A DNA stretch of 64,000 nucleotides from Bacteroidaceae bacterium (lineage in GTDB: Bacteria > Bacteroidota > Bacteroidia > Bacteroidales > Bacteroidaceae). The translations under genes and the position numbers were made by a program. The stretch covers positions 1-64,000 of the forward strand of contig JAFXVZ010000033.1 of NCBI GenBank assembly GCA_017534535.1. Reading direction: 5' to 3'. Under the pieces are notes generated by a model. That model ran no database searches and was not told the origin of the DNA. It was given only the letters and a program-made list of their open reading frames with translations. Below are positions 19,523 to 35,617 of the stretch, piece after piece; position 1 is the first letter of the stretch, and each line of letters starts with the position of its first letter.

Positions 19523-20761
19523 CTAAAGTCCTATGGCGCGAAGCAGTTCGGCTGTGGCTGTGGCCAAGCCAGCTTTGGCTTCTATGCATTGTTCAGCCGT
19601 GTCATTATAAACACGGACGGACATTAGAAAGTCTAGCAACGAGGAATCACCTTGCATATAGGCTATACGACGGTTCTCCAGGATGGATGTCGCATCATCC
19701 AGCATCGTGGCAGAACACTCCTGTGCCACCTTGTTTGCCGATTGCCAAGAAACCAATGCCTGTTGCACTTCAGATATAATCTGTTGTTTTGCAGCTTCAT
19801 AAGCTGCTTCAGCCTGTTGTGCCGTGCGCTCAGCTGCTAATCGTTCACCTCTATTGAGTCTTGAGAATTTTAAAGGGAAGGCAACACCCACAGTTAGTCC
19901 GTGGAATGTAGGTGCAGGTGCTATTTCATTGCGCACTTCCTTATTGTATGAATAACCTAAGCTCAGTTCTATTTCAGGTGCACGAGATGCCTTCACCAAG
20001 GCTAGGCTTCTTGTGGAAAGTGTTTTAGATAACTCTGCAGAACGCAAGTCTGCTCGATTTTCCAATGCCAGGTCCACCATCTCCTGTACAGAAGTGGCAG
20101 GAATAGCCAGCCCGATATCCTCTTCAGGAACATCACTAAAAGTAAGACCTCCAGCATAGAGCGAAAGTGTTTGCAAGGCATTGGCATAAATGGCTTCAGC
20201 AGTAAGATACTCGGCATATAAAGCCTTTGCCTCAATGCGTGATTGGCGTGCGTCAATCATACTCCCATCACCCAGAGCTGCGCGGATGCTGTCATTATCG
20301 GCCACCTTCAGCATGCTTTCGTATGAAGAACGCTTAATTCCCTTCAGAGCACGTGCCTCTTGTGCATGTACCCAAGCAATGGTTGCATCAGCCTTCAGAT
20401 TGCGGAACCAGTCGTCAATGGCAGCCCGGGTGATTTCTTCCTCGCTACGTGCCACATTGATGCGTGCTCTACGCACATTGCCCAAATTGAACAAATAAGA
20501 AAGGCCAACCTCCACTGACTGCCCCATTTGCAGAGACCAGTCCTGATTGTTGCCATATTCTACTGAAAGCGTCGGGTCATTGAACACACGCGCAGCAGCA
20601 GTCTGGGCTTCGGCAATACTCACATTATAACGTTCAGCCAGTAAAGCGGCATTCTGTTTTTCTATGGCATTCATATATGCAGAGTACTCCTGTGCATAGA
20701 TTGTATGGATACTGCCTCTCAGCAAGCACAGTATAAGCAACAGCTTAGAAATCTTCTTCAT
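19523..20761 (-). CDS. TolC-family outer-membrane efflux protein (CusC-type)
   Basis: The frame is open further upstream, but the credible start is the ATG at 20759-20761, which begins a signal peptide (MKKISKLLLILCLL...YAQ). The mature 390 residues form the long helices and repeated Ala/Glu/Leu-rich pattern of TolC-like outer-membrane factors (duplicated about 40-220 and 230-410). The start lies inside the end of the RND pump gene (17-nt overlap), so it is translated from the same mRNA. It should provide the outer-membrane exit duct for the pump. Confidence 0.9.
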   Translation of the reverse strand: MKKISKLLLILCLLRGSIHTIYAQEYSAYMNAIEKQNAALLAERYNVSIAEAQTAAARVFNDPTLSVEYGNNQDWSLQMGQSVEVGLSYLFNLGNVRRARINVARSEEEITRAAIDDWFRNLKADATIAWVHAQEARALKGIKRSSYESMLKVADNDSIRAALGDGSMIDARQSRIEAKALYAEYLTAEAIYANALQTLSLYAGGLTFSDVPEEDIGLAIPATSVQEMVDLALENRADLRSAELSKTLSTRSLALVKASRAPEIELSLGYSYNKEVRNEIAPAPTFHGLTVGVAFPLKFSRLNRGERLAAERTAQQAEAAYEAAKQQIISEVQQALVSWQSANKVAQECSATMLDDATSILENRRIAYMQGDSSLLDFLMSVRVYNDTAEQCIEAKAGLATATAELLRAIGL

Positions 20762-23700
20762 CTTTTGTAACGGTTTTTTGCTCTCGTATGCTTTCCATAC
20801 GATAATAGAGCGTTGGTAAAATATACAAAGTGATGATGGTTGAAAACAGCAGACCATAAACAATGACCGTAGCCAATGGACGTTGTACATCCGAACCGAT
20901 ACCTGTTGCCAATGAAGCTGGCAACAAGCCGAGAATGGCAACCGTGGCGGTCATCAGCACAGGACGCAGACGGTGGGATGCACCACCGATAACGGCAGTG
21001 CGCAAATCGATTCCCCTTCCACGCAGATGGTTGATGTGTGAAATCATAATCACTCCGTTCTGAATAGTTAGACCAAAAAGGGCGATGAACCCCACGGCAG
21101 ACGAGACATTGAAGGTCATTCCTCGCAAGTTCAGTGCCAGCAGGCCACCAAAAAGAGAAAGAGGCAATAGCACAATGAGCAAGCCTGCTTGGCGAAAATC
21201 GTGGAACGCACCATACAGCAGGATGAACATAATGCCCAGTACAAACGGAATCACGATGGTCAATCGGGTGTAGGCTCGTTGCTGATTCTCAAACTGTCCG
21301 TCCCACTTGAGCGTGTGCTTTGTGTGGTCATATTTCACACCATCACTTATCTTGGTATTGGCTTCGTCCAAGAATGTTGACAGGTCTTTACCGCGCAGGT
21401 TGACGCGTACTGTCAGTTGTCTTTTGCCCATCTCACGGGTGATGAAACTGGCACCTAGACGCGTGTTCACCTCTGCTACGGAAGACAGTGGGATGCGTGA
21501 ACCTGATGCTGTGGGCAGCGTCAGTGCAGCAATCTTTTCTGGGGTGTCACGCACGTCTTCCCTGAAGCGGCAGATGACATCATAAACGCGGTCTCCGATA
21601 TACACCTTAGATACAGCACGTCCACCTATGGCTGTTTCCACCAATTGGGCGATTTCAGAAATGTTGACCCCGTAATAAGCGGCTTTCTCACGGTCGGCAG
21701 TAATCTGTAGTTGTGGAAGTGGTGGTTCCTGATCAATAATCACATCAGATGCACCAGGGATGCGTACGAGGATGCCTTCCACTTCTTCGGCAATTCGTCG
21801 GCCTTCAGTTAAGTCTTCACCATATATTTTCATAGCCAGGTCGCTGTGTGAGCCTGCGATCTGGTCCATCACCATATCTATAATCGGTTGTGAGAAGCCC
21901 ACGCGATAGCCTGGCATCTGAGCGATGGTATCAGCCATCTGGGCAATAAGGTCGTCTTTGTCTTTACCCCATTTCCACTGGGAATAGGGTTTCAGCCCGA
22001 TGCAAACTTCAATATGCGACGAAGTGAAAGCCTCGGCACCTTCGTCATCTCTGCCCTCCTGTGTCATCACATAAATTACCTCATCAAATTCCTTCAACTT
22101 TTTCCGTAGTTCTTCGGCCATTTTTGTCGATTTTTCCAGCGATATTCCCGGGGGAGTCTGCACTTGAATCCAGATGCCCCCCTCATCGAGGTTAGGCAGA
22201 AAGTCTTTGCCTACGGTGATGACCATTACAATCACTGCCACTAGCACAATGCCGATGCCTGTGTAGATTCTCTTCGGCTCATCCAACATCCTGTCTGTGT
22301 GTATCCGGTAAAGCGTGTTCAGTCTGGTAACCACCTTGTTGTGATACACTTTCTGTGGTTTGCGATAGATGGTGTAAGCTAAGCCTGGAATCAACAGCAG
22401 TGCCACTGAAAGAGCACCCACCAACGCATAACCCACTGTGAATGCCATTGGGGTAAAGAGTTTCTTCTCAATGCGTTCAAATGCGAACAACGGCATATAT
22501 GCCACAATGATGATGAGCGTAGCGAAAAAGATGGGTTTTGCAACTTCCAGCACACGATTGAGAGTTTCTTGACCCGTAAGAGGTTTGCTAGGATCTTCCT
22601 CACGGAGTTTCAAAATGGTCTCTATCATCACGATAGCACCATCCACTAGAATACCAAAGTCAATAGCTCCCAAACTCAGTAGGTTGGCAGGAATTCCTGT
22701 TAGATGCATCAAGATGAAAGCCACTAACAGCGAGATAGGAATGGTGGCGGCAACGATGAGTGCACTCTTAGGACTTCCCAGGAAGATGATCAAGATACCA
22801 ATGACCAGCAGCATGCCGAAGAGCAAGGTGTGCTCGACGGTACTTAGGGTGGTGCCCACTAGATTCGTACGATCCATGAAAGTACGTATCTCCACTCCTT
22901 CAGGCAAGCCCTCACGGTTCAGTTCATCCACTGTTTTGTGCACTTTTTCCAGCACTTCCGAAGGATTCTGGTAGCGTAGCATCTGCACGATGCCTTCCAC
23001 ACCATCGTCAATAGAAACATCGTCATCTATATAACCAAGGATACCCTTTCGCTCTAAGTTACCATAGCGCAGTTCACCCAAGTCACGCAGGAAGACGGGA
23101 ATGCCATCCTCGTTTTTTACTACGATATCTCCCATGTCTTCCAGGTCTTGAATCAAGCCTACTCCACGCACCACATAACTCATTTCACCCATGCTGATCA
23201 TGCTACCGCCTGCATTTGCGTTATTGTTTTCCAAGGCGTCTTCAACATCTGTGAGCGACAGGTCATATTCTATAAGTCGCTGAGGGTCTATCTCCAACTG
23301 ATACTGGGTGGTCAAGCCGCCATAGTTGCTCACGGCTGCTACACCCTGAATCTGTTGCAAGGCGGGAATAACCATCCACTTATTGATTTCCGTCAGTTCG
23401 CGCAGTGATTTCCCCTGTCCCACCAGCACATAACGGTATATTTCGCCAGTAGGTGATGTGAGTGGATTGAGTTCTGGTTCAGCACCGTATGGCAAGTCAA
23501 CACCTTCTATGCACTCACGAACACGTTGTCTTGCCCAATAGTCTTCCGTCCCATCTTGAAACACAAGCACGATAATTGACAAGCCGAAAGCGTTCTTGCT
23601 TCGCATGATATTAAGAGAAGGCAGTCCGTAAAGTGCTCTTTCCAGCGGAATGGATATCTGCTGCTCCACTTCTTCAGCCGCTAGTCCGGGTACCTGAGTC

Positions 23701-23846
23701 ACCACCTGAACGGTCACATCGGCAATGTCAGGGTAAGCATCAATGGAAAGTCTTGTCCAGGAATAGATTCCAAAGAGCGACACTACCAGAAAGACAACGG
23801 CAATCAGCCCTCTGCGTTTGAGAACATATTTAATGAGGCGTTCCAT
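20745..23846 (-). CDS. CusA/CzcA family heavy-metal efflux RND permease
   Basis: The 1033-residue inner-membrane protein has 12 predicted membrane segments and two large periplasmic loops. The N-terminus (MERLIKYVLKRRGLIAVVF) and the fourth membrane helix motif GAIDFGILVDGAIVMIE, with D, D and E in the heavy-metal RND (HME) pattern, identify it as a metal-ion/proton antiporter rather than a drug pump. Likely substrates are Cu(I)/Ag(I) or Zn/Co/Cd; the motif alone does not decide. It is the middle gene of an adaptor-pump-duct operon and starts 4 nt after the adaptor gene. Confidence 0.95.
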   Translation of the reverse strand: MERLIKYVLKRRGLIAVVFLVVSLFGIYSWTRLSIDAYPDIADVTVQVVTQVPGLAAEEVEQQISIPLERALYGLPSLNIMRSKNAFGLSIIVLVFQDGTEDYWARQRVRECIEGVDLPYGAEPELNPLTSPTGEIYRYVLVGQGKSLRELTEINKWMVIPALQQIQGVAAVSNYGGLTTQYQLEIDPQRLIEYDLSLTDVEDALENNNANAGGSMISMGEMSYVVRGVGLIQDLEDMGDIVVKNEDGIPVFLRDLGELRYGNLERKGILGYIDDDVSIDDGVEGIVQMLRYQNPSEVLEKVHKTVDELNREGLPEGVEIRTFMDRTNLVGTTLSTVEHTLLFGMLLVIGILIIFLGSPKSALIVAATIPISLLVAFILMHLTGIPANLLSLGAIDFGILVDGAIVMIETILKLREEDPSKPLTGQETLNRVLEVAKPIFFATLIIIVAYMPLFAFERIEKKLFTPMAFTVGYALVGALSVALLLIPGLAYTIYRKPQKVYHNKVVTRLNTLYRIHTDRMLDEPKRIYTGIGIVLVAVIVMVITVGKDFLPNLDEGGIWIQVQTPPGISLEKSTKMAEELRKKLKEFDEVIYVMTQEGRDDEGAEAFTSSHIEVCIGLKPYSQWKWGKDKDDLIAQMADTIAQMPGYRVGFSQPIIDMVMDQIAGSHSDLAMKIYGEDLTEGRRIAEEVEGILVRIPGASDVIIDQEPPLPQLQITADREKAAYYGVNISEIAQLVETAIGGRAVSKVYIGDRVYDVICRFREDVRDTPEKIAALTLPTASGSRIPLSSVAEVNTRLGASFITREMGKRQLTVRVNLRGKDLSTFLDEANTKISDGVKYDHTKHTLKWDGQFENQQRAYTRLTIVIPFVLGIMFILLYGAFHDFRQAGLLIVLLPLSLFGGLLALNLRGMTFNVSSAVGFIALFGLTIQNGVIMISHINHLRGRGIDLRTAVIGGASHRLRPVLMTATVAILGLLPASLATGIGSDVQRPLATVIVYGLLFSTIITLYILPTLYYRMESIREQKTVTKDEEDF

Positions 23847-23850
23847 GTTT

Positions 23851-24957
23851 TTACTCGTTTAAATAAATACCACCATCAACTATAATGGTTTCTCCGCCTG
23901 AGAGACCTGATAAGATGCGGCTCTGTCCCTTCTCAATGTTCTCAGCAATTACCTGAACCCTGTTGAAATGACCTGGTGAGTCCTGTACATACACGTATTT
24001 ATTTCCTTCCCCCTGGAAGATGGCTGATGAAGGAACTATTAATGCGGATATTGCATGGCGCTCAAAGATAGCTGACACAAACATGCCAGGTTTAAGTGAG
24101 CGCTCTGTATTGACACATTCGATTACCACGGGCAGGGTTTGCGTCTTCTCATCCAGCAATTCACCCAGATAAAAAATCTTCCCTTCCATTTGACGTCCTG
24201 CTTCAAACTCCACCTTCACCATTTGACCAAGTGCCAGCCCTGAAATCTGTGACGTCTTCACATTTGCGGTGACCCATATGGTGGAGAGGTCGGCTACAGT
24301 CATGGGGGCCTCGTCTTCTTCGTTAAGATATCCACCTATCACTAGTTCATTGCGAACAACACGTCCGGAAATAGGGGAGACTACGCGCAACGGCTCGCCT
24401 GCATGCACGTTAGTAGGATCCACATTGAACTGTGCCAAACTGCGTTGCGCTATTTCAAAAGCATTCTCCGCATTGCGCGTCTCAACACATATCTCCTCCC
24501 ATTCTCGGTCTGAAAGCATTCCTCTTTGGTACAGGGCTTCTTTACGTTTTTGGTTGGCTGTAGCCAAATTGCTGGCACTACGGCTCTCTAAGTAGTCTTT
24601 CACGGTCTCCATATAATCAGAAGAATTTACTTCAAAGAGAACTTGACCACGGTGTACCTGATCACCCAGTCGCACAAACGAACGAATCACTCGCCCACCG
24701 AAAGGAAGACCAATTTCGGCAATGCTCCCTGACTTGGCACCTACCGAGGCTGTAGTTTTAAACTGCGCGTCTAGCGTTTGTGGCTCAATGACACGCAATG
24801 TAAGTTTTTTCTCGAGTTGTGAACCTGTTTCTACAGTAACGCCATATTCTGTTGATACGAAGTCAGGCTTTGATGCACCTTCATCTGTTTTTTGGTGCGA
24901 GTTACACCCCCAAAGTGCTGATGTAAGCAATGTCAGCACTATCCATTTGTATTTCAT
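23851..24957 (-). CDS. RND efflux periplasmic adaptor lipoprotein (CusB/HlyD family)
   Basis: The 368-residue protein starts with a lipoprotein signal (LLTSALWGC near residue 18). It then shows the adaptor order: barrel-sandwich half (IGLPFGGRVIRSFVRLGDQVHRGQVLFEV), a helical hairpin (about 115-165), the second half-lipoyl (VVSPISGRVVRNELVIGGYL), beta-barrel and membrane-proximal domains. It links the RND pump to the TolC-like duct in the periplasm. It is the first gene of the minus-strand operon, with a good -7 box upstream. Confidence 0.93.
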   Translation of the reverse strand: MKYKWIVLTLLTSALWGCNSHQKTDEGASKPDFVSTEYGVTVETGSQLEKKLTLRVIEPQTLDAQFKTTASVGAKSGSIAEIGLPFGGRVIRSFVRLGDQVHRGQVLFEVNSSDYMETVKDYLESRSASNLATANQKRKEALYQRGMLSDREWEEICVETRNAENAFEIAQRSLAQFNVDPTNVHAGEPLRVVSPISGRVVRNELVIGGYLNEEDEAPMTVADLSTIWVTANVKTSQISGLALGQMVKVEFEAGRQMEGKIFYLGELLDEKTQTLPVVIECVNTERSLKPGMFVSAIFERHAISALIVPSSAIFQGEGNKYVYVQDSPGHFNRVQVIAENIEKGQSRILSGLSGGETIIVDGGIYLNE

Positions 24958-26274: not shown

Positions 26275-26428
26275 TACATAGTAGGTTAAGAGGAAACAAA
26301 CTGATGTTAGACGGTACTAAATGCCATACTTTGCGGAAACTGATGACTTAGAGATGAGCATCTGCCAAAGATTGTAACAGTAGAGACCATGATTCTCTGG
26401 TTTTACTACATCACTAATAGCATAAATA

Positions 26429-26473
26429 TTGGGAACTTTATACATTTAGGCACAAAATGTATAAAGTTCCCAA
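26429..26473. repeat. 19-bp perfect inverted repeat upstream of the B12 promoter
   Basis: TTGGGAACTTTATACATTT (26429-26447) is repeated in perfect inverted form at 26455-26473 with a 7-base spacer. It ends 17 bases before the -33 element of the riboswitch promoter. No T-tract follows on either side, so it is not a standard terminator; it may be an operator or a very stable RNA hairpin. Confidence 0.8.
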
Positions 26474-26489
26474 CAAATTAATGGATTTA

Positions 26490-26521
26490 TTTGTTTTTGT
26501 TTTCGGTTTGCACTACCTTTG
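26490..26521 (+). promoter_or_regulatory. Bacteroidetes sigma-ABfr-type promoter of the B12-regulated operon
   Basis: TTTG (26490-26493) and TACCTTTG (26514-26521) are separated by 20 bases, a near-ideal -33/-7 pair. Transcription would start just before the cobalamin riboswitch. Confidence 0.75.
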
Positions 26522-26529
26522 CCTCCAGA

Positions 26530-26710
26530 ATTGGTTCCGTAGTGGCGCGTCGCTGCTTCGGATTAAAAGGGAATCAGGTGAAAGTCCTGGACAGTCCCGC
26601 TGCTGTGAAGCTCATTAAAGCTCCTTGGCATTAGCTAATTGCCACTGACTTGTCAGCGATGAGAGGTCGGGAAGGCGTCAGGGAGTGAGTCAGTCAGAAG
26701 ACCTGCCATT
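26530..26710 (+). ncRNA. Cobalamin (adenosylcobalamin-type) riboswitch
   Basis: The conserved core is present in order: AAAAGGGAATCAGGTGAAA (about 26565-26583), then GTCCTGGACAGTCCCGCTGC leading to GCTGTGA, a variable hairpin, GCCACTG, GGGAAGGCGTC and the B12 box AGTCAGAAGACCTGCC (about 26692-26707). Just downstream, AGGC (26717-26720) and GCCT (26726-26729) form a small hairpin that may be the kissing-loop or expression platform. Cobalamin binding normally turns expression off, so the downstream transporter should be made when B12 is scarce. Confidence 0.95.
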
Positions 26711-26784
26711 CATTAAAGGCTGTTCGCCTCGCGGGTTAGGTGTACAGTACGAAAATATTGTTTTTCTTTACATGTACTGTTTTT

Positions 26785-28308
26785 ATGTTTAAAAACTTTC
26801 ATGGCTTCAGCATGTTTGAACAGTATCAAGCATGGAAGCGGGAACGTAGAGAGCGCAAGAGTCTGAAATATCGCCTCTCTGTAGAAGCAATCAAGCTGCT
26901 GATTGTCACAGCAGTGTGTTTTGCTTTGTTGTTTTTGCCTGCGGAGGTGTTTGGCATTCCAAACCTCACCTTGGTAGAGCAGCGAGTCATCGTGATATTT
27001 GCATTTGCCACACTGATGTGGCTCTTGGAACCTGTGCCTGCTTGGACTACCTCGATGGGTGTGGTGGTATTGTTGTTGTTGACTTGCAGTGATAGCGCAT
27101 TCTGGTTTATGAAAAACGCCAGCGAATCTCAGGATTTGGGAAGTATGATTCACTACAAATCCATTCTCAACAGCTTCTCCGACCCTATCATCATGCTTTT
27201 TATCGGTGGTTTCATTATGGCCATTGCTACCTCAAAGAGTGGACTGGATGCCACGTTGGCGAAGGTGATGCTCAAACCTTTCGGCACACAGAGCCGTTTT
27301 GTGCTGCTGGGCTTCATCCTGCTTACGGCTTGGTTTTCGATGTTCATTAGCAACACTGCCACCGCAGCTATGATGCTTACTTTCCTTACCCCGGTGATGA
27401 AAGCATTGCCTGCAGATGGCAAGGGTAAGATTGCATTGGCGATGGCTATTCCTATTGCTGCTAACCTGGGTGGTATCGGTACTCCCATCGGTACGCCTCC
27501 CAATGCTATCGCCTTGCGTTATCTGAACAATCCTGACGGACTGAATCTGAACATCGGCTTTGGTGAGTGGATGATGGTGATGTTCCCCTTCGTCATTGTG
27601 ATATTGCTGATCGCCTGGGTGTTATTGCTCAATATCTTCCCTTTCAAGCAGAAGAAGATTGTGCTGAACATTGAGCACGAGCACAAGCAGAGCTGGCGAG
27701 ACTGGGTGGTTTATATCACCTTTTGCGTGACAGTGAGCTTGTGGGTACTCGATAAATATACGGGTGTAAATGCTAATGCGGTGGCTATGATTCCTGTGGG
27801 CGTGTTTGCCCTCACGGGTATTATTGGCAAGCGTGACCTGGAAGAGCTCAACTGGAGCGTATTATGGATGGTGGCTGGTGGCTTTGCTTTGGGCGTGGCT
27901 CTCGAGGAGTCAGGCTTGGCGATGCACTTGATTGAGTCTATCCCATTCCATACTTGGCCTGCATTGGCTATCATCATTGGTTCTGGTGTGTTGTGCTACA
28001 TCTTGTCTAACTTCATCAGCAATACGGCTACGGCTACCTTGCTGGTACCGATACTGGCAATCGTGGGTACTAGCATGGGCGAACAGTTGGATCATCTGGG
28101 TGGTATCTCCACCTTGCTCATTGGTATTGCCCTCAGCTCGTCAATGGCGATGCTTCTGCCCATCAGTACACCTCCCAATGCAATGGCACATTCAACTGGC
28201 TTTATCAGTCAGAAAGATATGATGAAAGCAGGATTGATCATGGGTATTATCGGTCTGGTACTGGGTTACCTGATGTTGATAGTATTGGGAAGTCACGGAT
28301 TATTGTAA
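26785..28308 (+). CDS. SLC13/DASS family transporter under B12 riboswitch control
   Basis: With the ATG at 26785 the protein is 507 residues; a GTG at 26740 would lie in the riboswitch tail, and ATG 26812 is also possible. About 11-12 hydrophobic segments follow a charged N-terminal helix (YQAWKRERRERK). Both halves have the sodium-binding SNT motif (S189-N190-T191 and S412-N413-T414), each followed by a GTPPN/TPPN-type motif, the hallmark of divalent anion:Na+ symporters. Known members carry dicarboxylates, citrate or sulfate. Control by a cobalamin riboswitch points to a cobalt- or corrinoid-related substrate, which is inference. Confidence 0.9.
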   Translation: MFKNFHGFSMFEQYQAWKRERRERKSLKYRLSVEAIKLLIVTAVCFALLFLPAEVFGIPNLTLVEQRVIVIFAFATLMWLLEPVPAWTTSMGVVVLLLLTCSDSAFWFMKNASESQDLGSMIHYKSILNSFSDPIIMLFIGGFIMAIATSKSGLDATLAKVMLKPFGTQSRFVLLGFILLTAWFSMFISNTATAAMMLTFLTPVMKALPADGKGKIALAMAIPIAANLGGIGTPIGTPPNAIALRYLNNPDGLNLNIGFGEWMMVMFPFVIVILLIAWVLLLNIFPFKQKKIVLNIEHEHKQSWRDWVVYITFCVTVSLWVLDKYTGVNANAVAMIPVGVFALTGIIGKRDLEELNWSVLWMVAGGFALGVALEESGLAMHLIESIPFHTWPALAIIIGSGVLCYILSNFISNTATATLLVPILAIVGTSMGEQLDHLGGISTLLIGIALSSSMAMLLPISTPPNAMAHSTGFISQKDMMKAGLIMGIIGLVLGYLMLIVLGSHGLL

Positions 28309-28337
28309 ATGATTTTTTCTTTTCTACCATTGTGCAC

Positions 28338-28363
28338 CATGTGTTATTACTCATGTGTTATTA
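28338..28363 (+). repeat. Two direct 12-mers after the DASS gene
   Basis: CATGTGTTATTA occurs at 28338-28349 and 28352-28363, 14 bases apart, directly before the terminator hairpin. A tandem binding site or a small duplication are both possible. Confidence 0.5.
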
Positions 28364-28367
28364 TTTG

Positions 28368-28406
28368 GGCGGCATAGTCTGCGACAGATATTGCCGCCAC
28401 CTTTTT
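28368..28406 (+). terminator. Terminator hairpin between DASS and PepSY genes
   Basis: GGCGGCA (28368-28374) pairs with TGCCGCC (28392-28398), with TCTG/CAGA pairing inside the loop, followed by a TTTTT run. It would end or attenuate the riboswitch transcript before the PepSY gene. Confidence 0.7.
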
Positions 28407-28436
28407 GGACAAAATGATTAAAAAGACATATATTTG
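28404..28436 (+). promoter_or_regulatory. Promoter of the PepSY-cbiK pair
   Basis: TTTG (28404-28407) and TATATTTG (28429-28436) are 21 bases apart. The -7 box ends 21 bases before the PepSY ATG at 28458, so these two genes can be transcribed without the riboswitch. Confidence 0.65.
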
Positions 28437-28457
28437 CAGTTGCTTAATATTTTGACT

Positions 28458-29966
28458 ATGAAAATCAGATTGACGAATTGGGTGATGAATGCCCATCGGG
28501 TGATGGGCTGGGTGTTGTGCGTGTTTTTCCTGATGTGGTTCCTGTCAGGCATCGTGATGTTGTATCAGCGTTTTCCCCGTGTGTATGATAACGATCGCGT
28601 GGAGCATTTAGAGGCGATAGGTGAATCGTATGAGAGTCTGCCATCCATTGAGGTTCTCCAGACGAGAGTGGGTAATAAGCCTGCCCGTTCGTTGCAAGTG
28701 GAGCGCTACTTAGGACAAACCTACTTCAAATGGCAGGCAAGTGATTCTCTTTATATCTTGTCTGCTGATGAAAGACAGACTTTGCATAGTATCAAGGAGT
28801 ATGATTATATAGATAAGGTGGTGAAGACATGGAACAAGGCTTCCATCTCTCGGGTGGATACCTTATATCAGTTAGACCAATGGACGCCCTTTGGCTCTAT
28901 GAAGGCGGAATTGCCTTTCTATCGTTATCACTTCGACGATGCAGAGCACCATCAGTTGTATGTGGGGTCTGTGACGGGACGTGTGTTGCAATATACCACC
29001 CTCAGTGAACGCTTTTGGGCTTGGTTGGGTGCCATCCCTCATTGGATATACTTTTACCAGTTGCGTCAGGATGTGGAGTTGTGGAGCGATGTGGTGATCT
29101 ATTTATCTGGTGCAGGCTGCATTATGGTTATCTTGGGTTTATGGCTAGGCATAATACGTTGGAGACAGCACAGGAAGAACCACACTTCTGGGGTGACACC
29201 CTATAAGAAGAAGTGGCATCGCTGGCATCATGTGTTGGGCTTGGCGTTCGGTATTTTCGCCCTGACCTTTGTGTTCAGTGGCATGATGTCGATGATGCCT
29301 TTACCCGATTGGATTACACACTCGCATCTGCAAGGAAGTCCGTCACGTTATATGCAGGCAGCTGCACCTCAACCATTTGATTATTTGTTGGATTATCGCA
29401 AGGTTGTGGAAGCATATCCTGAAGCTCAGTTGCTACAGTGGAGACACCTGCGTGAGCATCCTTACTATGTGGTCACCACGCCTGATGATGTTTATTATGT
29501 GGATGCACAGGACTGTGAGTTGAAGCCACTGAATATCTCTCGAGATGAGTTCTTGGGTTATGTGAAGGCTTTTTACCAACAAGACGGTAGTACGATGAAT
29601 CGTCAGATTGACTTGAAAGTGGAGGAGCTTGACCATTTTGAGACTTACTATCGTGCGCGTAGTGTGATTGAGAACGACATGCTGTTGCCCGTGTGGAAGA
29701 TTTCAGCAGATGATGTAGATAAAAGTGTGTTCTATATGAATCCACGGGATGGAAGTGTGCGTTATGTGGATCGTTCCTCACGTTTAAACTACTGGGCTTA
29801 TACTGCTTTGCATCGTATGCGCATTGGCTTCTTGAATAGTCGCCCTGTTTTGCGTAAGACACTAATTTGGGTATTGATGCTTGGTGGTGCTACCCTGTCG
29901 GGCACAGGCATTGTATTGGGAATTAATAGAGTTAGGCGGTTGTTTAGAAAGAAGAATAAGATATGA
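28458..29966 (+). CDS. PepSY-associated transmembrane protein
   Basis: The ATG at 28458 gives 502 residues (an in-frame TTG at 28434 is inside the promoter). The layout is that of PepSY_TM proteins: an N-terminal membrane helix after HRVMGWVLCVFFLMWFLSG, a periplasmic PepSY-like domain (about 60-190), a central helix pair, HRWHHVLGLAFGIFALTFVFSG, a second large extracytoplasmic domain (about 300-460) and a last helix with HRMRIGF before it. Such proteins are linked to iron/siderophore or metal reduction and uptake. The stop overlaps the cbiK start (ATGA), so the two are coupled. Confidence 0.85.
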   Translation: MKIRLTNWVMNAHRVMGWVLCVFFLMWFLSGIVMLYQRFPRVYDNDRVEHLEAIGESYESLPSIEVLQTRVGNKPARSLQVERYLGQTYFKWQASDSLYILSADERQTLHSIKEYDYIDKVVKTWNKASISRVDTLYQLDQWTPFGSMKAELPFYRYHFDDAEHHQLYVGSVTGRVLQYTTLSERFWAWLGAIPHWIYFYQLRQDVELWSDVVIYLSGAGCIMVILGLWLGIIRWRQHRKNHTSGVTPYKKKWHRWHHVLGLAFGIFALTFVFSGMMSMMPLPDWITHSHLQGSPSRYMQAAAPQPFDYLLDYRKVVEAYPEAQLLQWRHLREHPYYVVTTPDDVYYVDAQDCELKPLNISRDEFLGYVKAFYQQDGSTMNRQIDLKVEELDHFETYYRARSVIENDMLLPVWKISADDVDKSVFYMNPRDGSVRYVDRSSRLNYWAYTALHRMRIGFLNSRPVLRKTLIWVLMLGGATLSGTGIVLGINRVRRLFRKKNKI

Positions 29967-30895
29967 AAAGACTATTGATGATTTTAATATTAGGAGTGGT
30001 TGTTGTGGCTTTTGCACAAGCTCAAGGCGAGCGAACTGCTGTGCCTGCTGATATGCTGAGTGAGATTGGTTTAAACGATAAGGCGGCTGTTCTGTTGGTG
30101 AGTTTTGGCACCACACATGACGATACGCGTGCTGTTACTATCGACGCTCTCTATGACAAAGTGCGACTGATCTATCCGCAGCTTACGGTGGCTCGCTCAT
30201 TTACCTCTCGCATTATCTTGCGTCGCCTAAAGGCACGTGGCTTGGAATTCGATAGTCCCATCGAGGCGATGGAGAAGCTTCGTGCCCAAGGAATTACCCA
30301 TTTAGTGATACAGAGTACAAACATCATTGAAGGTGAGGAGATGGAGTCACTACGTCGTGATGCAGAAACTATGCGTCCTTTCTTCAAAGTAATTCGTCTG
30401 GGTACGCCATTACTCTATAGCGTGGAAGATGCTGAGCATGTTGTGGATATTCTGGTTGCCCGTCACCCTGCCGATGTGGAGCAGAATGCTCATATACTCT
30501 TTGTTGGACATGGAACCGAAGGACCTGCTACCGCTATTTATAGTCAATTGGATTATATGTTCAAGGCTGCAGGACATGCTAACCATCATGTTGGTACCAT
30601 CGAGGGCTATCCAACTTTAGATAATGCTTTGGCGCAGATACAAGCTGCCATGGGTAAGCAGGTAACTTTGGTGCCCCTGATGTTTGTAGCAGGCGATCAT
30701 GCCAAGAATGATATCTCAGTGGATTGGAAGGAAGCTCTTGAAGATGCAGGCTTGCAAGTGCAGCTCAACATTGAGGGTTTAGGAGAAGTACCAGAAGTAC
30801 AAAATATCTTCTTAGCGCATCTCCGATATGCCCTTCAGCACCGCACCCGTGACATTATAGAGAAGAAAACAGAGTATGCTGGACAGGCTGATTGA
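29963..30895 (+). CDS. cbiK: Exported sirohydrochlorin cobaltochelatase (CbiK, periplasmic type)
   Basis: The 310-residue protein begins with a signal peptide (about 1-20, ending FAQAQ), so it is a periplasmic CbiK. The chelatase domain (about 40-300) keeps the metal-binding triad H183 (FVGHGTEGP), E214 (GTIEGYP) and H246 (AGDHAKND), corresponding to H145/E175/H207 of the Salmonella enzyme. CbiK inserts Co2+ into sirohydrochlorin in the anaerobic B12 pathway; exported homologues in Desulfovibrio have been tied to metal or haem handling. Coupling to a PepSY gene and proximity to a B12 riboswitch suggest a cobalt or tetrapyrrole scavenging role. Confidence 0.9.
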   Translation: MKRLLMILILGVVVVAFAQAQGERTAVPADMLSEIGLNDKAAVLLVSFGTTHDDTRAVTIDALYDKVRLIYPQLTVARSFTSRIILRRLKARGLEFDSPIEAMEKLRAQGITHLVIQSTNIIEGEEMESLRRDAETMRPFFKVIRLGTPLLYSVEDAEHVVDILVARHPADVEQNAHILFVGHGTEGPATAIYSQLDYMFKAAGHANHHVGTIEGYPTLDNALAQIQAAMGKQVTLVPLMFVAGDHAKNDISVDWKEALEDAGLQVQLNIEGLGEVPEVQNIFLAHLRYALQHRTRDIIEKKTEYAGQAD

Positions 30896-30981: not shown

Positions 30982-31398
30982 ATGGCACTGACTGCAAAAT
31001 TACAATTAGGAGATAACGCCAAACAGCAATATCCACAAGAATACATGGTAGCTGATTGCCGTTGTCATTTTTCTAGAGGGTATAACCACGCGCAACCTCA
31101 CTCTGATGCCCGTTGCGATCAAGTGGACTTAACTGTAGCTGCTCCAAAAAAGGAGAATTTGTCATTATATGATTGGTTCATCAGCAATGGTGTTCTGTCT
31201 GGGCGCATCGTACTTGATGCTGTCAGCGCGAATAACAATGCAGGTGAAAGTAAAATCATTTATTTTGAAGATGCTTATTGCTATTCGTTGGCTGAAGACA
31301 ATGATATAGATAAGGCTGAACAAAGAATGCTAAAGATTTCGTTTGTCGCTGATAAAATAACTATCAGTGGAATAGAATTTGACAATATCTTTAATTAA
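30982..31398 (+). CDS. tssD: Type VI secretion system tube protein TssD (Hcp), Bacteroidetes type
   Basis: The 138-residue protein has no signal peptide and the strand pattern of the Bacteroidetes Hcp-like TssD family: an opening MALTAKLQLG strand, a conserved D-ARCDQVDLTV strand, a Leu-x-x-Trp element (LYDWF), then IIYFEDAYCYSLAE and a C-terminal LKISFVADKITISGIEF-N. Hcp hexamers stack into the inner tube that is fired into target cells. It is variable relative to the common housekeeping copy, as expected of a cargo-specific Hcp encoded next to a VgrG. The spike gene follows 16 nt later. Confidence 0.82.
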   Translation: MALTAKLQLGDNAKQQYPQEYMVADCRCHFSRGYNHAQPHSDARCDQVDLTVAAPKKENLSLYDWFISNGVLSGRIVLDAVSANNNAGESKIIYFEDAYCYSLAEDNDIDKAEQRMLKISFVADKITISGIEFDNIFN

Positions 31399-31414
31399 AA
31401 AAGTCAAGCATATT

Positions 31415-34400
31415 ATGAATAATGTTATATACATTGGTGACTTTACTCAAGAGTTTAAAACAGTCCCCCGTGAGAAGTATCAGGTCGTACAGCATTATGC
31501 ATACTCCTGCTTGAGAAGCCGCAATGATGCTGGTTTCCCGCATGGTCCGACACTAACTACCATCATGGATTTCACCTTACGCCTGCAACTGCCCGCAAAT
31601 AGTAAGGTGTTCCACAAACGAATGCATGATAACAATGCTTATTCTTATTCTTTCATCTTTGATCCAGAATACAATACATCAGGTAAAAAGAATTTGAAAA
31701 ATTATGGTTCGGCTATGGTCGTGGTTGGTAGCGTCATTGATGTGGAGGAAACGTTTGATGCCCAACCTGATGCTGAAGGCAATTCCAAGCAGATGGAAGT
31801 ACATGTCAAGTTGTTAGTTAAAGACATTACATATATAGGCGTGAGCCAAAGTAAGAAATTGGTTCTAAAGCAAGATCCACCTGAGCCAGTGACAAATGGG
31901 TCTAATTCAGGAGGTGATGATGGGGAAGGCGAATCAAACGATGGTGGCAAAACTCAGACTTCCAAAGAGGAACCTAAGGCTTTTGTCAAGTATGCCTTGT
32001 ATATTGGCAAATCTGCACAATCTGTAGGTGTCGATGAAGGTATTACACATTTAGCAGGTCAAAGGCTGACGAGTGACAATGGCGTAGCCGTTAACGTGTT
32101 GCTGAATTCGTTGAGCTATCATAAAAAAATATACCAGCCAAACGAGATTACAGCCAAACTTTCTGTTACATGGTCAGCCAATGATTCGCGGCCTTCTTAT
32201 AAAACCCTGCAGGATATATTCTTATTCAAGCAGGCAGAACTAAAGGTTGTAGATGTTAATCTTGATCAGATCATTGCTAAGAATTACTATATTTATCAGA
32301 TAAGGCCCCAATACAGAAAGACTAGTCAAAGTTCGTGTATAGACCTAGAACTGCAAATGTTCAGCCTTGACAAGTTGGCGACACTCGACAAGTTCAGCAA
32401 GGCTTATACAGCGAAGAAGCTGGGTGCGGATATCTTTACTCCTGGACTTGCTACTTTCAAAGAGGGAGATATGACCTTAGAGGGCTCTGCGACCAATTTG
32501 CAGTTCCTCGGGCTCGTAAACGATGAATTGCGCATACCATACTCTGTACAATACAATGAAACATTTTACGATTTTATCAAGCGTTTGGCTAACCGCTATG
32601 GTGAATTCCTTTTCTTTGAAAATGGTCAACTGAACTTAGGATTAAATCCTGGTACATCTAACTATTTCCAGAAGGCTGCAGATGGTACAGATACTACAAG
32701 CCCCATTAATTGGGCGGAAGATCACAGATTGCAGTCGCTTTCCTACCAACAACTTGACGAAAAAGCCATTGATGTGGATTACCAGCAAAACAATTATCTG
32801 GACCGTGAAGACGAGGAAACGGTAGTTTATGTGAGCGATAAAACTAAATTCTTCAATCCTGATCCTGTGGCTGCAGATGAAAATCTATATAAAGTGGATG
32901 AAAATGGTGGTATTACCATGGCTGATCAGTATGAAGAATTCAGGAAATTCATCGTTCAAGATCTGCTGGCAATACTCTCTGGCAACTCTTTGGCGCAGAT
33001 GTTGGCTGATTTGGTCACTACCGAGACTTTTAGAGTGATGAAAGCAGGCATCAAAAGTGCTGAAAAGATAGAAAAATTTAATAAGAATCATTATAATGAT
33101 TATACCACAGATGACGGATTCAGAAGTGGTGATTCTGTGATGCACTTTGCTTCAATCAACGGCAATTCCGCCCTTGCTACTAAGTTAGGAGACGATACTG
33201 TACTGAACCTATCATCTAAGTTTTACTCACTGGTAAGGAAAATGGAACAGGATGTGACCAAAAAGGCTGTGACATTGGAGTTTGGTGAGTTTACAAGGCC
33301 ATTCTCACTGGGTGACCAGATTCAGGTAGATGATACCGATTACATCGTAGTTGACATTAAGGGACAGGCAGATATGAATGAGGATGGCTTTACTGATTTC
33401 CAGCAAGTAACGGGAATACCACTTTATACTATAGAAAAAGATTCTACTAGTGTGGTAGTACCCCCTCTGCAGCCTGACATCCAACTCTGTGAGGCAAAGC
33501 CACAGCGGGCTTTCATTGACAGTACAAAAGACCCGTTTGGTTTGGGACGTGTGCGTGTGCGCTACCCTTGGCAAGTTAAAAAAGATAATGATGGAGATGT
33601 AGTTGGGGATGCTACTCCTTGGATTCGTGTAGCTTTGCCGATGGCGGCTAACGGAGGAAGCGTAAACTTCTCGCCAGAAAATGGTGATGAAGCGATGATA
33701 GGCTATGAGAATGGCAACATTGAAAGGCCTTACGTGATAGGTTATTTAGCTTCGCCTTACGTCACTCACGACTGGGGTGATGCGATTCCAGATAGAGGTA
33801 TCATGTCGGTTAACGGTCATTCTCTCACATTTGATGATGGAGGTAATGGCATGAATTTCTTCTATGGATGGCTGCCAGTCATAGACACGCTCAGAAGTTT
33901 CATACCCGGGGCAAAATGGGATTTGGAGGACAGGAATCCTGGGCTGGCAAACCTGACGGGTGGTATTACGTTGACTGACCGTTATGGGTTGTATGAAATC
34001 AGTGCTTCATCTGATGGACGAAACGTAAGTGTGAAGTCGCCGATGGGTGATGTGAAAATTAGTGCCTTTACGGGTATTAAAGTGGCTGCTCCCAATGGTG
34101 ACATTAGCATCACCGGTAAGAATGTCTCCATTACTGCTGGTGATAAGCTCACACTCAAATCTGGTGAGAACCTGAAAAAGACCATCATCAATGAATCGAA
34201 TAAATTTGGTTGGGACTCAGGGCAATGGTTTGCAGCAGATTTCGGATTGGGATTATTAAACAACTTCTCCAGCAAAGTTGTAGAGAGCATGATTGACTTC
34301 ACGCTATTACGTACGGTACTGGAAGTCTTTGCCAGACCTGTTGACGGTACACTGAAGATCAAGTCGAACACCCATGTGATGGTTGAAGCTGGAAAGGGCT

Positions 34401-35617
34401 CTGTGCAAGTACCGAAGGGCTTCTACAAGGATGCACCAGAAGAAGCTCTTACGGAAGATGAGATGAAATATCAGGCCGCAGTGTTTGTTGCTGTGAATAC
34501 AACCGTTAATTTGGTTAAACAAAATGTGAATGATTTTGTTGACAACATAAAAACAGCATACGATGCATATAATGCTGCTTACCAAACTTACGATGCTTTC
34601 TTGGCTGGCAAAAACGATCCTGATGGGCATATCTTACCGTTTGCTACTATTAAGTCCAAAGCTTATGCTGCAAATTTAGGTGACGATATCAATGCCGTTG
34701 ACATTGTGGATGGTGACCTGAAGATGGATGCTCCAGAAATGGTTAAGATTCCTACTGTTAGAGATCGACCTGTAGATCCAAGAACAGAAGACGGTTGGAA
34801 TAACAAGATTCTTGTTATACAAAATGCTGAAATGGCTATATACAATTTTAACCTTAGGGAATTTGATAGAGAAACTCAAAAAAAAGCACAGGCTGAAACT
34901 GATAGAGCTACATGGATTAGTGAATATAAGACCCAAGGTAAGAATTTGATGGTGGCTATCTTCAATTTGCGTAAGGCGTTTAACACAGAGAAGGACCGCG
35001 ATCTTGCCTCTCAATATGTCGAGGCAAATATGGTGAAAGGCATTGCTGACAAGTTGAGGGATTTCATGGAGATGGTAAATTGTCCGCTAACAATGAAAAA
35101 AGTCAATGATGATAATGACATACCAGAAAAGCTACCTATCTTTCTTGGCTGGGATGATGAGAAGAAACTCATCAAACGAAAAATTGTCTATGAGATGATG
35201 ATCAGCGATAATGCCACATTTAAGGCTACTATAAATGCTGGTACTCCTGCTGCTGCTCAGCAAGACAAGAAGATAAAAGAATTCTTTAAAGTAAGACCCG
35301 ATGCTAAAGTAACTGACTTTGCCAGTGATGTACAGTGGAAGTATTTCATCAGGAACATATTTGTTAATGATAGTCCAGGACATTATGTCGGACATTGGTT
35401 GTTGGATCATTGGGGGCAACCATTTAAAGACTTCTACGATATGTTTGCTCATAACAGAATTTGGAATCCTGATGCGAAGGGACGCATTCTCTTCTCCGAC
35501 AATCCGGCAAGAACAATATCGTTTACAAAGAAAGATGAACTGACATCGTCGGATAATATCGAAACGCTATCAAAGCAATTTAGTACAGAAATTTCTCGAA
35601 TTTTAGGCGAACTATAA
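31415..35617 (+). CDS. vgrG: Type VI secretion spike protein VgrG with long C-terminal extension
   Basis: The ATG at 31415 (an upstream TTG would overlap tssD) gives 1400 residues. The N-terminal gp27-like part (about 1-680) contains a Gly/Asp/Glu-rich insert near 150-190. A gp5-type OB domain (about 686-785) has DPFGLGRVRVRYPWQ, TPWIRVALPMA and GDEAMIGYENGNIERPYVIGYL. A gp5 needle beta-helix follows (about 858-925, with APNGDISITGKN and SITAGDKLTLKSG). The last 390 residues (about 1010-1400) are a mostly helical extension with a HYVGHWLLDHW cluster (H1323, H1327, D1331, H1332); I recognise no family there. It may be a fused effector or a cargo-docking domain. Confidence 0.88.
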   Translation: MNNVIYIGDFTQEFKTVPREKYQVVQHYAYSCLRSRNDAGFPHGPTLTTIMDFTLRLQLPANSKVFHKRMHDNNAYSYSFIFDPEYNTSGKKNLKNYGSAMVVVGSVIDVEETFDAQPDAEGNSKQMEVHVKLLVKDITYIGVSQSKKLVLKQDPPEPVTNGSNSGGDDGEGESNDGGKTQTSKEEPKAFVKYALYIGKSAQSVGVDEGITHLAGQRLTSDNGVAVNVLLNSLSYHKKIYQPNEITAKLSVTWSANDSRPSYKTLQDIFLFKQAELKVVDVNLDQIIAKNYYIYQIRPQYRKTSQSSCIDLELQMFSLDKLATLDKFSKAYTAKKLGADIFTPGLATFKEGDMTLEGSATNLQFLGLVNDELRIPYSVQYNETFYDFIKRLANRYGEFLFFENGQLNLGLNPGTSNYFQKAADGTDTTSPINWAEDHRLQSLSYQQLDEKAIDVDYQQNNYLDREDEETVVYVSDKTKFFNPDPVAADENLYKVDENGGITMADQYEEFRKFIVQDLLAILSGNSLAQMLADLVTTETFRVMKAGIKSAEKIEKFNKNHYNDYTTDDGFRSGDSVMHFASINGNSALATKLGDDTVLNLSSKFYSLVRKMEQDVTKKAVTLEFGEFTRPFSLGDQIQVDDTDYIVVDIKGQADMNEDGFTDFQQVTGIPLYTIEKDSTSVVVPPLQPDIQLCEAKPQRAFIDSTKDPFGLGRVRVRYPWQVKKDNDGDVVGDATPWIRVALPMAANGGSVNFSPENGDEAMIGYENGNIERPYVIGYLASPYVTHDWGDAIPDRGIMSVNGHSLTFDDGGNGMNFFYGWLPVIDTLRSFIPGAKWDLEDRNPGLANLTGGITLTDRYGLYEISASSDGRNVSVKSPMGDVKISAFTGIKVAAPNGDISITGKNVSITAGDKLTLKSGENLKKTIINESNKFGWDSGQWFAADFGLGLLNNFSSKVVESMIDFTLLRTVLEVFARPVDGTLKIKSNTHVMVEAGKGSVQVPKGFYKDAPEEALTEDEMKYQAAVFVAVNTTVNLVKQNVNDFVDNIKTAYDAYNAAYQTYDAFLAGKNDPDGHILPFATIKSKAYAANLGDDINAVDIVDGDLKMDAPEMVKIPTVRDRPVDPRTEDGWNNKILVIQNAEMAIYNFNLREFDRETQKKAQAETDRATWISEYKTQGKNLMVAIFNLRKAFNTEKDRDLASQYVEANMVKGIADKLRDFMEMVNCPLTMKKVNDDNDIPEKLPIFLGWDDEKKLIKRKIVYEMMISDNATFKATINAGTPAAAQQDKKIKEFFKVRPDAKVTDFASDVQWKYFIRNIFVNDSPGHYVGHWLLDHWGQPFKDFYDMFAHNRIWNPDAKGRILFSDNPARTISFTKKDELTSSDNIETLSKQFSTEISRILGEL

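Follow-up and report, generated by a model that had tools for sequence, protein, structure and literature searches.

A recurrent cobalamin riboswitch–DASS transporter pair in Bacteroidales as a candidate B12-gated dicarboxylate outlet

Why should a cobalamin riboswitch stand in front of an anion transporter of the DASS family? The question is raised by a locus of a Bacteroidaceae bacterium (assembly GCA_017534535.1, contig JAFXVZ010000033.1, positions 1 to 64,000 of the forward strand; this whole stretch of 64,000 nucleotides is called the window), in which a riboswitch-led DASS gene is followed by genes for a PepSY membrane protein and an exported CbiK. A preliminary description of the window had taken these genes together as a possible system for acquiring cobalt, a cobalt chelate or a tetrapyrrole. 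We give somewhat better than an even chance to a different reading, in which the riboswitch and DASS constitute a B12-gated dicarboxylate outlet of the succinate–propionate branch and PepSY–CbiK is a separate unit. The features concerned are the following.

26490..26521, + strand: Bacteroidota-type promoter match TTTG-N20-TACCTTTG for the riboswitch–DASS unit (consensus match)
26515..26724, + strand: cobalamin riboswitch aptamer (RF00174; leader aligned with six relatives)
26785..28308, + strand: DASS-family (SLC13-like) anion transporter with two SNT motifs (TIGR00785, VcINDY alignment)
28368..28406, + strand: intrinsic-terminator-like hairpin followed by TTTTT, 3' of the DASS stop (fold)
28404..28436, + strand: promoter-like TTTG-N21-TATATTTG for PepSY–CbiK (consensus match only)
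28458..29966, + strand: PepSY-associated transmembrane protein, candidate periplasm-facing redox protein (PF03929)
29963..30895, + strand: exported CbiK-type chelatase with H183/E214/H246 (PF06180, signal-peptide-like N-terminus)

The aptamer matches RF00174 over the full model (1-189), scoring 94.3 bits where the gathering threshold is 31.5, and is the sole Rfam match above threshold in the window; it lies 60 nt from the DASS start, an ATG at 26785 common to seven aligned leaders, window included. The cobalamin riboswitch behind a promoter that had been proposed earlier is thus borne out, the promoter match resting on the Bacteroidota consensus (the TTTG-N21 match likewise), which has seven such matches across the whole window on both strands. 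The transporter, described at the same time as a divalent-anion family member with two SNT motifs, is one by its score against TIGR00785 'dass' (256.3 bits, cut-off 198.6) and by the alignment of both SNT motifs and the PPN loops to VcINDY, SNT-type motifs being the substrate/Na+ site of DASS transporters.

The pairing of riboswitch and DASS recurs. A DASS match at E <= 1e-40 was found in 21 of 99 genomes of the genus (the window's own included), and when 20 of the 25 DASS loci of the genus were scanned with Rfam a riboswitch was present 5' of DASS in all five relatives at 85-92% identity and in none of the 15 at about 55-70%. In a second collection, comprising the best 80 of 296 loci with flanks from a scan of named genomes, an nhmmer profile placed a riboswitch directly 5' of DASS in 17 loci, and Rfam confirmed all 12 distant cases with 69-91 bits; four of the 17 are contigs of four of the five close relatives, so the two counts are not independent. 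The profile was built from 19 Rfam hits (two-fold test 9/9 and 10/10; no hits in 23 Rfam-negative loci) and took the place of a regular expression for the riboswitch core that was too strict, finding 6 of 19 known sites. Among the 63 loci without a riboswitch, three (L082, L096 and L142) have less than 300 nt upstream, their matches beginning at 41, 264 and 180, and could hide one; a GACCTGC sequence 5' of DASS in L068 was rejected, as the stretch around it looks like the tail of a coding region and the locus is Rfam negative. A quick tree built from 81 proteins requires five changes of the riboswitch label with L082 uncounted (six if it is scored as having no riboswitch), a degree of clustering that no one of 500 shuffles reached; the five changes may be separate gains, or gains and losses.

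Within downstream flanks of 0.96 to 8 kb, PepSY stands beside riboswitch–DASS in one of the 17 loci (L085) and CbiK in none, nor is CbiK near DASS in any of the 80, which marks riboswitch–DASS as a free-standing, recurrent unit. Judged from sequence, DASS is, and repeatedly, a gene of the B12 regulon. The B12 link of the preliminary description hence stands, while the conserved DASS–PepSY–cbiK adjacency by which it proposed to check its reading was not found in these flanks; it had also held that the idea would fail if homologous DASS genes lay mostly without a riboswitch or cbiK, and this is so of cbiK throughout and of the riboswitch in the majority, yet a riboswitch that recurs still makes the B12 link real. 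By sample title, 15 of the 17 riboswitch–DASS loci come from foregut/rumen-type samples, compared with 12 of 62 others (L082 left out), a count that ignores relatedness, takes 'RUG' and 'RUI' as rumen and includes 32 unplaceable loci among the 62. In two loci (L115, 6980-7350; L141, 7325-7508) tRNA genes lie immediately 5' of the unit.

In the window, DASS and PepSY are parted by a hairpin (GGCGGCA...TGCCGCC with inner stem GTCTG/CAGAT, then TTTTT) of -20.8 kcal/mol (z -3.85), which none of 200 shuffles equalled in stability, and by the second promoter match. Strong hairpins also occur 3' of DASS in L081-L085, and among these loci PepSY is the next gene in L085 alone; the hairpin of L086 differs. 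An automatic terminator search after DASS proved too strict, missing the window hairpin, and was replaced by folding and by reading the segments. Hairpin and promoter match make co-transcription of all three genes doubtful: DASS would be its own transcript and PepSY–CbiK another, with predicted boundaries. A single operon was accordingly rejected as a first choice, the gene order being unconserved as well, and with it the earlier notion of one acquisition system. It is also very improbable that the riboswitch mainly serves PepSY–CbiK through read-through, with DASS as a passenger; although CbiK and PepSY do occur in riboswitch-led loci of relatives and the intergenic gap is merely ~150 nt, of the 17 relatives with riboswitch–DASS 16 lack PepSY and all lack CbiK in the flanks covered, and the hairpin and promoter match lie in between.

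What the transporter would carry is suggested by its neighbourhoods elsewhere. DASS relatives stand beside mutAB in four of the 80 loci, all four without a riboswitch, directly divergent from mutA-mutB in L109, L130 and L156 and, in L104, with a gene of the aspartate:alanine exchanger (AAEx) family between DASS and mutBA. The mutA and mutB genes encode the B12-dependent methylmalonyl-CoA mutase, and the mutase was found in nine of ten genomes tried. DASS lies directly behind AAEx in L098, L104 and L139, again with no riboswitch; in the protein tree L098, L104, L109 and L156 group together, while L130 and L139 fall elsewhere. SucE1, a succinate exporter, belongs to the AAEx family (PMC9527358). 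AAEx is matched at E <= 1e-60 in 140 of 151 genomes of the bacterial family, and among the matches listed 54 of 96 genomes have it no more than 6 kb from mutB, against a rough expectation of 0.006 per genome; in the window genome mutAB has AAEx one gene away. AAEx is itself riboswitch-led in five of 20 loci scanned by Rfam, with one more found by the profile among 30: in G091 riboswitch–AAEx is one gene away from mutAB, in L178 a biotin-carboxylase remnant lies between riboswitch and AAEx, and in G209 and G225 the riboswitch leads biotin carboxylase, BCCP and an mmdA-type carboxyltransferase, then AAEx (the G209 carboxyltransferase, the one scanned, has mmdA as its best match at 793 bits, below the cut-off of 998.8). 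Two transporter families thus share a mutase neighbourhood and B12 riboswitches. By locus, riboswitch-led operons of the biotin carboxylase/BCCP/mmdA type lie at L270 802-6563, L271 2815-8610 and L272 2813-6717, with AAEx behind in L270 and L271, and at L275 6591-9144 a riboswitch and a biotin-carboxylase remnant only precede AAEx.

On this basis the following mechanism can be proposed. The riboswitch would sense B12 and, like most of its class, be expected to shut off DASS under ample B12. At low B12, methylmalonyl-CoA mutase would be left without its cofactor and the path from succinate to propionate blocked, and the derepressed DASS would dispose of, or exchange, the dicarboxylate that piles up, most likely succinate. 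We infer the B12-off (OFF) polarity and, similarly, the substrate (probably succinate) and direction of transport. Grown without B12 in a defined medium, Bacteroides thetaiotaomicron builds up succinate while propionate is not formed (PMC10881866), and X. ruminicola without cobalamin accumulates succinate as well, as stated in PMC11575231, which also reports four riboswitches in strain KHP1, two of them upstream of cobalamin genes.

The polarity is consistent with the other riboswitch targets of the genus, for which 60 riboswitch loci were hand-picked from the best-scoring matches listed. A first gene was obtained in 51: 20 BtuB-like receptors, 10 members of an NrdD cluster, four of a DUF4465 cluster plus one more DUF4465, three beta-eliminating lyases, three biotin carboxylases, one MetE and others, the clusters being named from one representative each. 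The remaining nine had no first gene by the rule used, some of them having receptors or DUF4465 on closer look. An NrdD-type ribonucleotide reductase (L210 and its cluster) comes first in 10 of the 60 loci. NrdD and MetE are B12-independent isozymes, and a switch of the OFF type, opening an outlet independent of B12, is in keeping with such a regulon; the DASS outlet would be the transport counterpart of the rule that places B12-independent isozymes under B12 riboswitches.

Several observations weigh against a succinate outlet. No locus has riboswitch–DASS and mutAB together, mutAB being found in the flanks of none of the 17 riboswitch–DASS loci and a riboswitch at none of the mutAB-adjacent DASS genes, so that the link between DASS and the mutase runs through relatives. 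In G205, a riboswitch–DASS relative whose genome is 83% complete, no mutase match was found, and among the matches listed AAEx is not within 6 kb of mutB in 42 of 96 genomes (contig breaks too). The second motif is SHT instead of SNT in 11 of 18 riboswitch–DASS proteins, a reading that alignment also gives for the phosphate transporter PHO90, and DASS clades may therefore differ in substrate; the proteins concerned are those of L113, L115, L134, L136, L138, L141, L143, L151, L152, L155 and L157, L136 and L151 having been read singly and the rest named by exclusion. Characterised DASS members include importers as well as exchangers, so transport by this one may run in either direction. The hairpin at 28368-28406 was not reported by a simple terminator scan, so the separation of the units rests on the fold and on the recurrence of the hairpin, and there may be read-through from DASS into PepSY–CbiK. 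The window genome (89% complete) has no CbiM or NicO match, controls being positive in 3 and 5 of 14; its cobalt importer is therefore unassigned, which keeps a role of DASS in cobalt uptake alive. Finally, B. thetaiotaomicron without B12 in another medium produces neither succinate nor propionate (again PMC10881866).

That role, in which DASS would be an unexpected importer of cobalt, cobalt-citrate or another cobalt chelate working with periplasmic CbiK and PepSY, appears unlikely. Known or predicted cobalt transporters are indeed governed by cobalamin riboswitches, as described in PMC3766115, the window genome combines a cbi operon with the missing CbiM/NicO match, CbiK and PepSY adjoin DASS in the window, and at the loop EHEHK each of the seven rows in the DASS clade of the window has at least two His. 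However, these are seven of 81 rows overall, and the His-rich loop was not found in the other riboswitch–DASS clades among the rows compared; the linkage to cbiK that a dedicated cobalt importer would conserve is absent from the 80 loci, the 17 with a riboswitch among them; hairpin and promoter match part the units; G213 and G172 have both riboswitch–DASS and CbiM; and DASS neighbours elsewhere include mutAB and AAEx. Cobalt import was rejected as a first choice on these grounds. An ON switch, with DASS importing succinate in the presence of B12 for decarboxylation to propionate with Na+ export, is similarly improbable: VcINDY, like other DASS members, is a Na+-coupled symporter, relatives of DASS have mutAB nearby and an mmdA-type gene lies under a riboswitch, but other targets in the genus include NrdD and MetE, which fit OFF control. 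There is also a small chance that DASS carries another anion (amino acid, citrate, sulfate or phosphate) needed more at low B12, for example where B12-independent enzymes serve methionine or nucleotide metabolism. The diversity of DASS substrates, the SHT motifs and the presence of MetE and NrdD in the regulon would accord with this, whereas the DASS–mutAB and DASS–AAEx neighbourhoods of relatives point to the succinate–propionate branch.

What, then, is the PepSY–CbiK unit? The PepSY protein scores 43.8 bits against PF03929 (gathering score 28.8), has H13, H195, H257 and H452 invariant in nine proteins, window included, and finds no PDB sequence match at E up to 1; a redox role would follow by analogy with PepSY_TM proteins in metal uptake. 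CbiK overlaps it by 4 nt, scores 244.6 bits against PF06180 and has H183, E214 and H246 aligned with Salmonella CbiK (1qgo), so that the description of a PepSY protein overlapping an exported CbiK with an intact metal site is upheld by both domain matches and this alignment; with 206 bits against the 400 of the equivalog model NF047852, it is filed as a CbiK-type chelatase and not as an equivalog. Export was called by a hydropathy measure rather than a signal-peptide predictor, and CbiK homologues, both further copies of the window genome included, have a hydrophobic stretch near the N-terminus. Those copies lie in a cbi operon on another contig (L005, 8741-10117 and 12268-13086), outside which the window PepSY–CbiK pair stands; one has an N-terminus that is lipoprotein-like by eye and the site H/D/H, the other is signal-peptide-like with H/E/H, and none of the three CbiK homologues found in the genome looks cytoplasmic.

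Among 20 CbiK loci from other genomes PepSY is near in seven, and a cobalamin riboswitch is present in nine of 17 scanned; all nine have a TonB receptor and seven a run of corrin-ring enzymes, recognised by clusters whose representatives match CbiC, CbiG, CbiJ and CbiD. By alignment the H/E/H site is kept in 16 of 23 homologues, including those of all nine riboswitch loci, and lost or changed in seven (a crude pattern test, which failed 12 of the 23, was set aside). The homologues of L050-L055 lack H/E/H, lie outside riboswitch loci where scanned (L050, L051 and L054), and possibly represent a non-chelatase use of the fold. In 16 genomes, each of them carrying a CbiK homologue and 10 of them 90% complete or better, HemB was not found, whereas the control was positive in 11 of 14; of the same number, SUMT exceeded its cut-off only in G037, with G032 near (160 against 185 bits). 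These bacteria thus seem incapable of building the precursor ring and probably begin B12 synthesis from an imported tetrapyrrole, as has reportedly been proposed in similar form for Porphyromonas gingivalis, and with such a start a periplasmic chelatase makes sense: it would set cobalt into a sirohydrochlorin-like precursor, or exchange its metal, before uptake, and chelatase and membrane redox protein together would process an imported tetrapyrrole, cobalt or both on the way to B12. It is therefore plausible that the riboswitch-led TonB-receptor/cbi operons of relatives include a periplasmic step on tetrapyrrole or cobalt; of the metal handling that the preliminary description ascribed to CbiK this part stands, whereas its joining to DASS does not.

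Around these units, an inverted repeat of 20 pairs (26428..26474, no strand assigned) lies between an upstream methyltransferase gene and the riboswitch promoter; it is terminator-like on the - strand, where it may act as a terminator. Just upstream, at 19523-24957 (- strand), are CusA/CzcA-type heavy-metal RND efflux genes (an outer-membrane OEP protein, an RND permease above the TIGR00914 cut-off and an adaptor), and 86 nt past CbiK begin Type VI secretion-like genes (30982-35617, + strand), comprising TssD/Hcp followed by a protein of 1400 aa that bears baseplate-hub domains.

For the host and for cross-feeding it matters which of the two, succinate or propionate, a gut or rumen community gives off, a choice that B12 is known to settle at the enzyme. 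If a B12-gated dicarboxylate outlet exists, the cell would also open and close the exit by B12, giving a direct link from B12 supply to fermentation product and a candidate gene for the succinate outlet of Bacteroidales. We see an even chance that two families of dicarboxylate transporters, DASS and AAEx, have repeatedly come under B12 riboswitches in Bacteroidales of gut and rumen, so that B12 gates propionate formation versus succinate release, with RNA-level control over the fermentation end product and succinate cross-feeding. Riboswitch–DASS widens the B12 regulon by a class of transport, and it cautions that a transporter under a B12 riboswitch is not automatically a cobalt or B12 importer. 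Among titles and abstract openings none was found that describes a Bacteroidales transporter for succinate or another dicarboxylate under cobalamin-riboswitch control, though Rodionov et al. 2003 may list related ones, and the term 'DASS' does not occur in the main texts of PMC2667541 and PMC3766115.

Compared with known systems, the window DASS resembles the DASS/SLC13 transporters (VcINDY and the Na+/citrate and Na+/dicarboxylate cotransporters) in its family-level match and SNT/PPN motifs; it differs from them in its B12 riboswitch control and in the export or exchange, in place of uptake, that is proposed for it. With the predicted cobalt transporters (CbiMNQO, NiCoT and CbtA-G, the Cbt transporters reportedly having been named in the 2003 paper of Rodionov et al.) it shares being a membrane transporter under a B12 riboswitch. 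The window CbiK has sequence relatives with solved structures among exported CbiK-type chelatases, 2xvx and 9b86 ('Heme-binding protein FetB'), which are exported or haem-binding; unlike them it is paired with PepSY, and its relatives occur with TonB receptors in cbi operons. AAEx proteins (AspT, SucE1) belong to another Pfam family (PF06826, as opposed to PF00939/PF03600 for DASS), but like DASS they are found under cobalamin riboswitches and near mutAB in relatives, and the same role is proposed for them. A further parallel is offered by the B12-independent isozymes MetE and NrdD, where, as proposed for DASS, a cobalamin riboswitch precedes a route that does not need B12; these are substitute enzymes, whereas DASS would be a transporter carrying the metabolite left unconsumed when a B12 enzyme stalls.

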